Below are positions 1-3,320 of a DNA stretch of 58,728 bases, in pieces. The notes under the pieces are model-generated. The model was not told the origin of the DNA and did no database searches. It saw only the letters and a list, made by a program, of their open reading frames with translations. The position numbers and the translations under genes were made by a program. The stretch spans positions 1 through 58,728 of the forward strand of contig NZ_KB910948.1 of the NCBI RefSeq assembly GCF_000383235.1, read 5' to 3'. The DNA is from Bacillus sp. 123MFChir2. GTDB taxonomy: Bacteria; Bacillota; Bacilli; Bacillales; Bacillaceae_G. Positions within the stretch are counted from its first letter, which is position 1, and each line of letters starts with the position of its first letter.

Positions 1-142
1 GATCCACTAAATATTCTTTTACTTCCTCAAACGTCATTTCCAAGTATTTATAGACCGTAGGTCGTGAGATTTTTAGCTCTTCTGCAATTTGTGCAACTTT
101 AAATTTCTTCTCATGTAATTGACGAATTTTCAAGTATAGCAT
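1..142 (-). mobile_element. IS21-family transposase (IstA-like), N-terminal part, runs off the window
   Basis: The minus strand encodes about 47 residues starting MLYLKIRQLHEKK, followed by a helix-turn-helix (KVAQIAEELKISRPTVYKYL) and an acidic MTFEEVKEYL stretch. This is the typical start of IstA transposases of IS21-type elements, where the HTH binds the element ends. The ATG at 142 has GGAGG 8 nt upstream; an in-frame TTG five codons earlier is an alternative. The catalytic DDE domain and the IstB helper would lie outside the window. The element end is probably near 270, where TG-initiated sequence begins and partial repeats of a CGCTAA motif occur, as expected for the multiple end repeats of IS21. 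The family call rests on the HTH region only. Confidence 0.7.
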
Positions 143-270
143 TAACTTCTCCTCCAAATCCCCAACCTCCAATAAACAGATACTTTCAGTTTACTAGAAA
201 ATTGGTTTTAATGAGCTAAAGTGTAAAAGGTTTCTTAGCGAAAACTGTCAATTTTATTTTAGCGTTTACA
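143..270 (-). mobile_element. Probable terminal region of the IS21-like element
   Basis: Read on the minus strand, the segment from 270 starts TGTAAACGCTAAAA and contains further related motifs (TTTTCGCTAAG, TTTACACTTTAGC) before the transposase start. IS21 elements carry TG...CA ends with several internal repeats. The boundary at 270/271 is inferred from where the reading frame of the interrupted upstream gene stops looking like a protein. The second end is outside the window. Confidence 0.45.
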
Positions 271-399
271 ACTTTGCCCTATAGATTTAATATAATAGCC
301 CTTCTTATATAAATATGGATATACATTTGAATTCTCAGGATAATTCATGGCTATATGTATAAATACATTTAGTTGAAATAAAGGATTAATATTAGACAT
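259..399 (-). pseudogene. 5' fragment of a small third cluster gene, truncated by the IS21-like element
   Basis: An ATG at 399 overlaps the stop codon of the preceding 408-aa gene by 8 nt, a sign of translational coupling. It opens a 46-codon frame beginning MSNINPLFQLNVFIHIAMNY. The last four to five codons appear to come from the IS end, so the native gene is interrupted at about 271. The fragment is rich in aromatic and aliphatic residues, as in the start of a folded protein. I do not recognise the family. The start of a middle component of a multi-gene defence system is one possibility, but nothing in the fragment proves it. Confidence 0.5.
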
Positions 400-1618
400 T
401 AAAATTATCTCTCCCAACAAAAGGATGCATATTTCTATTTATTACATTTTCGTATTTTTCATTTCCAATCCATATCTCAATCGTAGGATCTAAGTACTTT
501 TGAAAATTAGTTGCCAATCTATGTACGGTATTACCACAAGTTCCTTTTGGAATAAATACTGTAAATTCATCTAAACTCAGATCCATCATAACCTCTTGCC
601 ATAAATGTAAATCCACACCATATATATGTACTCTTTCTTCAGAAATCCATTGTGGTTCAGCTAAAATTTTGAACGGTTCTTTACCTTTTGGAAATGTACT
701 CTCAATGAAATTTCTAAATACATTCCTCTTTAATCTTTTACCAAATTTAAAAACAATTGGACTACCTTGAAATGAAAAATTATATTGATTATTTGGGGAC
801 TTAATTAACTCATAATCTAACCAAACATTACTCTCAATGTCCTCAGTAATTTTCTGATACGTATTAACCGTCTCAAATATCTGATGCCTATGGTCCATAA
901 AATTATTAGAACGATTGGTAACTTTCCCGTTGTAATAAAAATGATGTCCACCTTTTCCACCCTTACAAAGAGTCGGAAATCTCATCGAAGTAATAGAATT
1001 AAATTCTGGAAGAATTTTACGAATCAAATCAATATGTTCTGTTATTTCACCAATTTCTTTAGATAAAGATATCTTCGTAGGCTCCTCCATCACATAATCC
1101 TCTTTATATTCTAATTGCCCTTCATTCACATGTAGATTATAAATATTCTGATATTCAAAGTTCATCTTAATATATCTGTTTAAATGGTGCTGATTTTTCA
1201 CTTGATGTAAGAATGAATTAAACATCTTTCCTGAAACCCATAAAGAATCTACCAAAGAAGAATTCTTAACTATATTATTGGCCACCTTATCTGAATAGTC
1301 AGCGTTATCTATAGAATATATAACAAAAAATCTATTATTAATTATTTCTAAAAATCCAAATGGACTCTTTTTATTCCCTAATACAAAGAACTTTTCATCT
1401 ATTTGCTTATATAAAACTTTTTCACGATTCAATATTATATTGAGGTCTAAAGAATTCTCTAACCAACCATTGGAAGAAGTGACCAAATCCTCATTAAATG
1501 TTTCAAAAATATAAGATTTTAATAGTGGATTTTTTGTTTTGTATGTATCCAATTGCCCTTTAATATTATTTATATATTCATCTAAATAGTTGAATACCAC
1601 ATCACGAGAATATTTCAT
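392..1618 (-). CDS. Unrecognised 408-aa protein of an accessory cluster
   Basis: I do not recognise this protein. The chosen start is the ATG at 1618, six bases after AAGGAGG; an upstream in-frame TTG is less likely. It is soluble-looking, with no signal peptide or membrane span, and is rich in aromatic and charged residues. The middle has a Gly/His-rich stretch (CKGGKGGHHFYYNGK, about residues 220-234) followed by a DHRHQ motif. The C-terminal third alternates hydrophobic strands and ends in an IWIGNEKYE segment. It lies downstream of a PemK-like gene, behind its own candidate promoter and a strong hairpin, and overlaps a small third gene truncated by an IS. Position beside ssrA and the AT-rich composition suggest acquired DNA. 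A role in defence or toxin-antitoxin function is inferred from context only. Confidence 0.75.
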   Translation of the reverse strand: MKYSRDVVFNYLDEYINNIKGQLDTYKTKNPLLKSYIFETFNEDLVTSSNGWLENSLDLNIILNREKVLYKQIDEKFFVLGNKKSPFGFLEIINNRFFVIYSIDNADYSDKVANNIVKNSSLVDSLWVSGKMFNSFLHQVKNQHHLNRYIKMNFEYQNIYNLHVNEGQLEYKEDYVMEEPTKISLSKEIGEITEHIDLIRKILPEFNSITSMRFPTLCKGGKGGHHFYYNGKVTNRSNNFMDHRHQIFETVNTYQKITEDIESNVWLDYELIKSPNNQYNFSFQGSPIVFKFGKRLKRNVFRNFIESTFPKGKEPFKILAEPQWISEERVHIYGVDLHLWQEVMMDLSLDEFTVFIPKGTCGNTVHRLATNFQKYLDPTIEIWIGNEKYENVINRNMHPFVGRDNFNV

Positions 1619-1640
1619 AGTCAACCTCCTTATATAGTAA

Positions 1641-1673
1641 AACCCCCCCTACTTACCTACAGTAGGGGGGGTT
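1641..1673 (-). terminator. Strong hairpin plus U-run in the leader of the 408-aa gene (terminator or attenuator)
   Basis: A perfect 13-bp inverted repeat (AACCCCCCCTACT and its complement) with a 7-nt loop is followed on the minus strand by TTTTAC. It ends 23 nt before the start codon of the 408-aa gene and lies downstream of a candidate promoter at 1746-1774, so it would end most transcripts before the gene. Confidence 0.75.
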
Positions 1674-1745
1674 AAGGAAAATTTCCCTTTTGGCCATGCT
1701 GCGCTCAGTTGCGCGGGGGTGTTATAACCCAAAGTATCTACTTTT

Positions 1746-1774
1746 ATTATAATTAGTCATGTTTGTTTTTGCAA
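1746..1774 (-). promoter_or_regulatory. Candidate sigma-A promoter for the leader RNA and 408-aa gene
   Basis: Minus strand TTGCAA at 1774-1769, a 17-bp spacer, then TATAAT at 1751-1746. It sits immediately after the stop of the PemK-like gene. Transcription would begin near 1739 and give a leader of about 115 nt that contains the hairpin at 1641-1673. Confidence 0.6.
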
Positions 1775-1780
1775 TAAACT

Positions 1781-2578
1781 TTATTTAATTTTTTGAAGTT
1801 GTTCCTGTTCTTGAAGTCTTTTATATAAATCCTCCAAATCTTTTTTTGCTTGCTCATAAAGCGCTCGTTGATTCTCTAAATCATTTTTTGTTTTCTCTAA
1901 GTCTGCACTTAAAGTACTATTTTGTTCTAGTTTTTCTTTCAAATTGGCCTTTAATTCTATATGCTCTGCATATACTTTTGGTAAATAATGTTTTAATAAT
2001 ACACTGTCTATTTCATCCAGCTTGTCTTTTCCCACATTACTATTAATATTATCTTTCTCATACACTTTACGAATTCTTCTCTTATCAATAACCCGTATTG
2101 AATCTAATAAAACTGCACACTCATGTTTAAAACCATGAGATTCACCTACATCAATATGTAACTCATCCTGATCTCCATGCTTTGGAGTGGATACCGGTGC
2201 AATTAACATCAAATTCTTGTTGTCATGCAGTATAACAGCAGGATGCTCAAATGTTAATTCTGAACCATAGTGACCAAATAACTCTACAGATACAATATTT
2301 CCACGAATATGATTCGCATATGTTTTAATGAATTTCTTATCTTCAATGTAATTTTCTAATCCTTTCATCCATTTCAAACCATAATCCTGTTTATATGTAA
2401 TAATATTACTAAACAGTTCATCTAATAACTCTTTCACATCAATAACACATTGCGAATCTTCTTTCAATCTTGGAATTGTAAAAGCTGGGTCATCTTCTTT
2501 TTTTGTTTCAATATCCCTAAGTTTTTTAGAAGTACGCTTATGAAACTCTTCTATATCTTTTTTAGATTTTAATGCCAT
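1781..2578 (-). CDS. PemK/MazF-fold protein with C-terminal coiled coil
   Basis: 265 aa from the ATG at 2578, which follows AGGGGGAT. Residues about 92-170 match the PemK/MazF-like fold: RGNIVSVELFGHYGSE, then EHPAVILHDN, then LMLIAPVS, and a closing CAVLLDSIRVIDKRRI. Classical MazF toxins are about 110-aa endoribonucleases. This protein has an extra N-terminal helical part of about 90 residues and a long Lys/Glu/Leu-rich coiled coil (about 203-265). Members of this longer PemK-like group are usually annotated only as hypothetical. No short MazE-type antitoxin gene is visible upstream, where only an AT-rich gap separates it from ssrA. Catalysis is not shown by the sequence; a regulatory or effector role in the cluster is equally possible. 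Confidence 0.75.
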   Translation of the reverse strand: MALKSKKDIEEFHKRTSKKLRDIETKKEDDPAFTIPRLKEDSQCVIDVKELLDELFSNIITYKQDYGLKWMKGLENYIEDKKFIKTYANHIRGNIVSVELFGHYGSELTFEHPAVILHDNKNLMLIAPVSTPKHGDQDELHIDVGESHGFKHECAVLLDSIRVIDKRRIRKVYEKDNINSNVGKDKLDEIDSVLLKHYLPKVYAEHIELKANLKEKLEQNSTLSADLEKTKNDLENQRALYEQAKKDLEDLYKRLQEQEQLQKIK

Positions 2579-2593
2579 TGTATCCCCCTGCAA

Positions 2594-2770
2594 CCCTTTT
2601 TATTTATAGAATACCATTTAATGTATAAATTTTTAATCTAATTATCATATCTCTACAAAATATTTATTCGTTATATAAAAATTATACATTTTTAATTCTT
2701 TTTTATTACTACTATTCAAAATATATTACCAAAGGTTTTACTTTAAGCATAATTTGGCCATATATAAAAT
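2594..2770. other. AT-rich gap between the PemK-like gene and the ssrA terminator
   Basis: Very AT-rich. Several TATAAT-like strings occur on the minus strand but none has a convincing -35 at 17 bp, so no promoter is assigned for the PemK-like gene. No ORF or repeat is seen. Confidence 0.5.
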
Positions 2771-2808
2771 AAAGCATAAACTGTCCAAATCGGACAATTT
2801 ATGCTTTA
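2770..2808 (-). terminator. Terminator downstream of ssrA
   Basis: Inverted repeat with arms AAAGCATAAA and TTTATGCTTT enclosing an inner TGTCC/GGACA stem. On the minus strand it follows the tmRNA 3' end by about 40 nt and continues into a T-rich stretch. Confidence 0.7.
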
Positions 2809-2846
2809 ACTTACAAATAAAAATAAAAAAACCACCAAATATGTAT

Positions 2847-3208
2847 TGGTGGAGACGGTGGGAGTCGAACCCACGTCCAAAAGTATTGGCACTTAAGCTT
2901 CTACGAGTGTAGTCGATATATTGGCATTTCGCAAACTCTTCGGCCTATCGACAGGCTTCCGAATTGCTAGTCTGGTTGTTCTCTTCCTTTGTCCTCAGAC
3001 GGTGAACGCCGGCGTAGCCCACTTAGAGTGAGTCCGCTACCCTACCACATGGGCAATGGAGGGGCGAACCGCTAAAAGCTGTTATTAAGCAGCTAAAGCG
3101 AAGTTGTTTTGTTGTTTGCCAGTTATTGGCTTTGACGTTTTAACGAGGCCGATCCCCTCGACTCGCAACCTAAGCTCAAACTACCCCTGTCGAATCCGTA
3201 ACGTCCCC
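2847..3208 (-). ncRNA. ssrA: tmRNA (transfer-messenger RNA)
   Basis: The 5' end GGGGACG at 3208 pairs with CGTCTCC before an encoded CCA at 2847, forming the alanyl tRNA-like acceptor, and the GGTTCGACTCCC T-arm is intact. The internal reading frame ends GKQQNNFALAA followed by TAA, a normal ALAA degradation tag; the codon just before the Gly is ACT. tmRNA rescues stalled ribosomes and tags the nascent peptide for proteolysis, acting with SmpB encoded next to it. Length of 362 nt is typical. The 3' end faces the accessory region, a position commonly used by integrating elements. Confidence 0.97.
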
Positions 3209-3292
3209 ATATAAGAAATGGAGCATACGAAGTATATTCGTGATAGCTACTATTGAGCTGTTTTTCAATGTTCAACTGGCCTTACATTTGTT

Positions 3293-3320
3293 ATTATAGC
3301 ACACGATCGTCATTTTGCAA
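3293..3320 (-). promoter_or_regulatory. Candidate ssrA promoter
   Basis: Minus strand TTGCAA (3320-3315), 16-bp spacer, TATAAT (3298-3293), about 85 nt upstream of the mature tmRNA 5' end, leaving room for a processed 5' leader. Confidence 0.55.

Follow-up and report, generated by a model that had tools for sequence, protein, structure and literature searches.

Which system do three minus-strand genes beside the transfer-messenger RNA (tmRNA) gene ssrA of Bacillus sp. 123MFChir2 belong to, and which of its parts remain? The window analyzed here is a stretch of 58,728 nucleotides (nt) of contig NZ_KB910948.1. The original prediction saw in the locus the remnant of a multigene defense or toxin system, inactivated by an insertion sequence (IS). 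In the following, K is the PemK/MazF-fold gene, A the gene encoding 408 amino acids (aa), and C the IS-cut gene; all features of the window described below are on the minus strand. We tentatively favor, at slightly less than an even chance, the reading that the locus is the degraded form of a mobile cassette with four parts (K-RNA-A-C) and a probable anti-phage role, in which an RNA gene is located between K and A.

The K-A-C order recurs in other Bacillota

A search for the cluster without the IS yielded nine other Bacillota loci, in which K, A, and C are present in the same order with an uninterrupted C. Since this order recurs in nine other loci, the cluster is more than a chance arrangement, and the view of the locus as a remnant of a multigene system was borne out. 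K is located upstream of A in 7 of the 24 loci with full-length A (L001, L005, and L007 to L011, all Bacillota); this set excludes the window and also three loci in which A is split, incomplete, or cut off (L006, L023, and L025). Two more K-A-C cassettes, L093 and L094, were obtained from genome searches. In L005, a transposase-like gene sits between the RNA and A. That the three genes form one unit holds for the Bacillota loci with K but not elsewhere, where the A-C pair occurs without K in many bacterial phyla and in archaea.

Matches to A were found in four plasmid records, in 1 of 58 viral contigs, and, among genome contigs, in 0 of 56 stretches with a single-protein query and 21 of 35 with an alignment query. 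The A family was detected in 5 of 387 genomes of one order, namely, in the four genomes of this order in which the RNA was detected and in G296, which has a distant A. The cassette and the RNA were not described in the papers searched, preprints and most subscription papers being outside our reach.

A structured RNA gene is located between K and A

The three predicted genes are real, but a structured RNA gene at about positions 1739 to 1639 had been overlooked. Its extent was estimated from a promoter and a terminator. The predicted sigma-A promoter (TTGCAA-17-TATAAT; 1746 to 1774) has 10 of 12 consensus bases and was equaled by 11 of 300 shuffles. The terminator-like stem CCCCCCCTACT/AGTAGGGGGGG with a T run ahead of A (1638 to 1671) was read from the sequence, and relatives have equivalent stems. 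The RNA unit of the window (1701 to 1730) consists of the hairpin GGGT-TATAAC-ACCC, the linker CC, and the hairpin GCGC-AACTGA-GCGC. It scored 43.5 bits with R1, an RNA model built from 13 units, of which it is itself one.

The K-A gap could be aligned across loci, with a terminator-like stem before A in the aligned loci. The general unit comprises ~31 nt: a hairpin of 4 bp whose loop is close to CNTAGC, then a C, then the hairpin GCGY-AAYNGA-GCGC. Two units are present in 9 of 11 loci (L001, L005, L007 to L010, and L092 to L094), and one is present in the window and L011. The stems covary: all 152 cells paired across 19 units, with one stem pair being GC in 7, AU in 6, and UA in 6 units, and another being CG in 10, UA in 8, and UG in 1. 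In a control, sliding the partners abolished the pairing in the 19 units and also in 13 units. Double changes were found in just two of eight pairs, the counts of double-change pairs and of pair types were not above shuffles, and helix 2 varied at one pair, on one side only. Five-base-loop units (the first of L005, that of L036, and the second of L092) and the second unit of L093 were omitted from these counts as misaligned or not added; outside the counts, helix 2 of the first L005 unit is ACGC/GCGT, a double change.

An outer stem round the last unit was compared with 500 shuffles for each of 15 units. No more than 20 shuffles reached it for 7 of them (L001, L005, L009, L010, L057, L079, and L094), whereas the other 8 (window, L007, L008, L011, L036, L092, and two of L093) lay outside this limit. 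This stem was excluded from R1. The promoter beat most shuffles (at most 11 to 15 of 300 equal) in 4 of 11 loci only, namely, the window, L005, L092, and L093. Rfam 15 gave no match at the RNA units of the window, L005, L007, L009, L036, and L057, and its abiF model did not match at the RNA units.

Distribution of the RNA

The RNA was present in all 11 loci with close K relatives, always downstream of K; in 10 of them it occurs together with A-C and lies upstream of A. For loci outside the model, R1 scored 53.4 (L093), 50.5 (L094), 48.0 (L057), 43.3 (L036), 42.4 (L092), and 41.8 bits (L079). In the 20 A-family loci that lack K (L002 to L004, L006, and L012 to L027), scores did not exceed 10.4 bits, with upstream DNA missing in L021 and L025, and no match was obtained in the distant-K loci L082, L083, and L096 to L098 or in L129. 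In L092 (genome G744), the RNA follows K and has two units and a terminator-like stem; no A or C was found within 17 kb, and no A-family match was found genome-wide with a profile that does find A in other genomes. The RNA was detected in 4 of 397 genomes of one order and in 3 of 398 genomes of the class (G001, which is the home of L007, G744, and G417); the G417 match of 27.4 bits was set aside.

Co-occurrence links the RNA to K, and gene order links it to A. A pairing of the RNA with K, which we put at just under an even chance, is preferred because two kinds of loci agree, the one that has K and the RNA but no A-C and those that have A-C but no RNA, although kinship confounds this co-occurrence. 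It is possible, though rather unlikely, that the RNA instead serves A (or A-C) as an antitoxin or cofactor, as in AbiF/ToxIN with the RNA ahead of the bound protein, and that K is a separate helper. That 10 of 11 loci have the arrangement RNA-terminator-A-C is in line with such a role, as is the Clostridioides difficile AbiF RNA, which precedes the gene of its neutralized protein (PMC12373285). The 20 A-family loci devoid of an RNA match and the K-RNA arrangement of L092 speak against A as the partner of the RNA.

Viral contigs also contain the RNA. Pattern searches gave 31 and 17 stretches, all of which were scored with R1; scores of at least 41.8 bits were reached by L036, L057, L079, and L043, the last being the same contig as L005. 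The remaining matches (L046 with 31.0 bits, L028 with 27.5 bits, and others lower) were taken as chance. The true-looking second units of L005 (21.6 bits) and L092 (23.3 bits) fall in the chance range, and thus R1 can miss variants. Solo RNAs with one unit each are located at 1804 to 1834 in L057, 883 to 913 in L079, and 11756 to 11785 in L036 (all on the minus strand), and none of the three protein genes was detected beside them in stretches of 3.6, 2.5, and 14.0 kb, respectively. L036 carries terminase- and portal-like genes (by eye). In L057, the solo RNA adjoins a skipping-rope RNA (RF02924, 1e-8; 1893 to 1985, minus strand) and, by eye, a gene resembling those of methyltransferases. L057 and L079 resemble each other and possibly go back to a single event. 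Compared to phage records, the L057 stretch matched over query bases 42 to 88 only, outside the RNA unit, and the L036 stretch gave no match.

These solo copies bear on a further explanation, in which the RNA and its terminator act in cis as a leader that dampens expression of A-C by attenuation, is perhaps read by K, and has no role in trans. The terminator-like stem directly before A and the similar length of the K-A gap in most loci are consistent with a leader. However, the RNA is retained in L092, where no A follows, and stands alone in phage contigs, and we consider this explanation improbable.

Proteins K, A, and C

K (1781 to 2578) encodes 265 aa if translation starts at the ATG at 2578, with the TTG at 2593 as a possible alternative. 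The PemK/MazF fold originally seen in its product was confirmed by a Pfam PemK domain (PF02452, 3.6e-11) at residues 92 to 194, accompanied by a helical N-terminal part and a C-terminal coiled coil. Among solved structures, the K profile matched type II MazF/EndoA chains only (1.9e-5). The catalytic residues of MazF are Arg and Thr. A His occupies the position of the catalytic Arg in 11 of 11 K relatives, and a Ser/Thr is kept at the position of Thr48. K may be an RNase. A small same-strand antitoxin open reading frame directly upstream of K was not found at a length of at least 60 aa in L001, L007, L009, and L011 or at least 40 aa in the window; small open reading frames upstream of K are present in L005, L008, and L010. 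In 219 of 398 genomes, the K profile picked up MazF of the ordinary kind, and the prevalence of K is therefore not derivable from it. Long PemK-like proteins carrying the HP motif are encoded in L082, L083, L096, and L098, which gave no R1 match; they form a wider family.

Profile and structure searches, as proposed along with the original prediction, gave predicted TBP-like folds for the 408-aa product of A (392 to 1618; phrog_22469, 5.6e-19; model pLDDT, 85.5; VIA rows). Full-length C of relatives is a predicted PD-(D/E)XK-type nuclease with P-D/E, D/E-x-K (E-x-K), and Q motifs and a winged-helix tail. A and C had no cutoff-level match in Pfam or NCBIfam and no credible match in PADLOC. Pfam lines for A and the C fragment (Pertussis_S1, 0.22; Menin, 0.019; far under curated cutoffs), WH_III-A in PADLOC (0.034), and NCBIfam lines for relatives (0.015 to 0.1) were rejected as chance. 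Of the 24 full-length A genes, 23 are adjoined by C: BLAST clustering placed C immediately after A in 22 loci, and in L003 C was assigned from its position and motif alone. A and C may act together. The sole locus without C is L015 (5777 to 7042), where a PAS/histidine-kinase gene follows the full-length A. In L006 (4899 to 5399), only the C-terminal part of A is present, as a small gene in a row of small genes on a haloarchaeal plasmid.

The window copy is interrupted

The predicted 8-nt overlap of A and C was found at 392 to 399, which the A stop and the C ATG share. The C fragment (259 to 399) was correctly described as cut after ~42 codons by an IS21-like end: 43 native codons align with uninterrupted C proteins of relatives, followed by three IS-derived codons (270 to 262) and a stop within the IS end. 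The IS21-like end (2 to 270) has its boundary at the loss of C homology and contains an IS21-type HTH region at 2 to 172 (Pfam HTH_7, 1.6e-9). The IS21 model NF033546 gave a partial match (3.3e-5) far under the model cutoff because the window holds just 57 residues of the IS protein. C in the window ends before the active-site motif, and thus the nuclease arm should be dead and is probably missing from this copy; K and the RNA could still function. On the other side, the cassette adjoins ssrA (2847 to 3208; ARAGORN; Rfam, 4e-90), past whose 3' end the three genes lie on the same strand as originally described. As for the suggested integration at ssrA, a repeat search of 1 to 3300 gave no att-like pair.

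Genomic contexts

Among the relatives of the cassette are copies at the end of a prophage, immediately after genes for Tn7-like transposition, on a plasmid, and next to restriction-modification genes. Such mobile or restriction sites commonly host defense cassettes. In L009 (161 to 15152), Mu-transposase-type, TniB, and TnsD/TniQ genes are directly upstream and HsdM/HsdS (type I restriction-modification) genes downstream, and L010 has EcoRII and its methylase downstream; both restriction-modification neighbors look like complete known systems. The flanks of L005 hold a repressor-like helix-turn-helix gene and, at the opposite side, ImmA/IrrE-like and integrase-like genes (by eye).

A-C is located behind N6_Mtase and Methylase_S genes in L016 and, by BLAST, in L018, behind an N6_N4_Mtase gene that overlaps A by 14 nt in L019, behind a DUF6094-helicase gene in L020, behind DUF499 and ASCH/DUF7680 genes in L024, and behind an OLD-type ATPase gene in L002. 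DUF499 systems are described as BREX-related defense systems (PMC12839542). Coming after methyltransferase or DUF499 genes, the A-C pairs of L016, L019, L020, and L024 look like restriction components that accompany a modification system. There is no methyltransferase among K, A, and C, and the window ends inside the IS.

It is from the genomic contexts alone that we infer a role in defense. Carriage on a plasmid, a prophage, and a transposon, together with the MazF-fold protein, would also suit an addiction module of such elements, whose nuclease targets the cell or rival elements. We consider this unlikely: the location of A-C immediately after genes for DNA methyltransferases and after DUF499/OLD-type genes fits restriction better, and chromosomal copies exist (L007, L093, and L094, by gene content only). 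Other contexts weigh against a role in defense. The A loci L012 to L015 and L017 adjoin unrelated genes, and L007 lies near a permease gene and DUF444.

Comparison with known systems

The cassette appears to share with type III toxin-antitoxin systems (ToxIN, CptIN, and TenpIN) a MazF-type fold protein beside a small RNA gene of repeated ~31-nt units with a terminator. In contrast to them, the cassette has its RNA after the MazF-fold gene and not directly upstream, has other RNA units and the extra A-C pair, and encodes a K closest in sequence to MazF chains of type II. K shares the PemK domain and the Ser/Thr with type II MazF/PemK but differs in the His, the long extra helices, and the lack of a constant adjoining small antitoxin gene. 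PMC12373285 describes the C. difficile AbiF (Abi_2) RNA as two ~33-nt motifs 19 nt apart with a sigma-A promoter and a terminator, carried by a prophage and able to be an RNA antitoxin. Despite this likeness, which includes a spacing of about 20 nt and prophage carriage, K, A, and C have no Abi_2 match in the Pfam lines, and the abiF model misses the cassette RNA. C is similar to PD-(D/E)XK nucleases (NucS/EndoMS, BsmI, and FokI) in predicted fold and motifs and differs from them in the lack of a sequence family match, the adjoining A, and the winged-helix tail. The arrangement of A-C behind methyltransferase (L016, L019, and L020) or DUF499 (L024) genes recalls restriction-modification and DUF499 (BREX-related, Hma) systems, but K-type cassettes have no methyltransferase of their own.

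A possible mechanism

In the favored K-RNA-A-C cassette, A-C would be a nucleic acid-targeting nuclease module, to which C brings the PD-(D/E)XK active site and the winged helix and in which A may recognize the target or activate C. K would pair with the small RNA from the K-A gap, whose units may bind K and hold it inactive in the style of type III toxin-antitoxin systems. Upon infection, the RNA supply would be lost and K freed. A-C would then be a first layer, and K-RNA a guard or second layer. With the RNA also standing alone in phage contigs, the cassette may be a new RNA-controlled phage defense, and the phage solo RNAs are possibly decoys. Precedents are phages that escape ToxIN via ToxI-like RNA and RNA anti-CRISPRs.

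A bolder and unlikely reading is that K and A-C share one small double-hairpin RNA as a cofactor and are both held inactive by it in a ribonucleoprotein, that the phage RNA copies are decoys keeping the system off, and that the cassette belongs to a new class of RNA-controlled nuclease immunity. 

One mobile cassette unites an RNA with no Rfam 15 match, the library-unnamed A and C, and a His-type MazF-fold protein, and the solo phage RNAs bear on whether RNA-held toxins extend past ToxIN/AbiF and whether phages carry RNA decoys.
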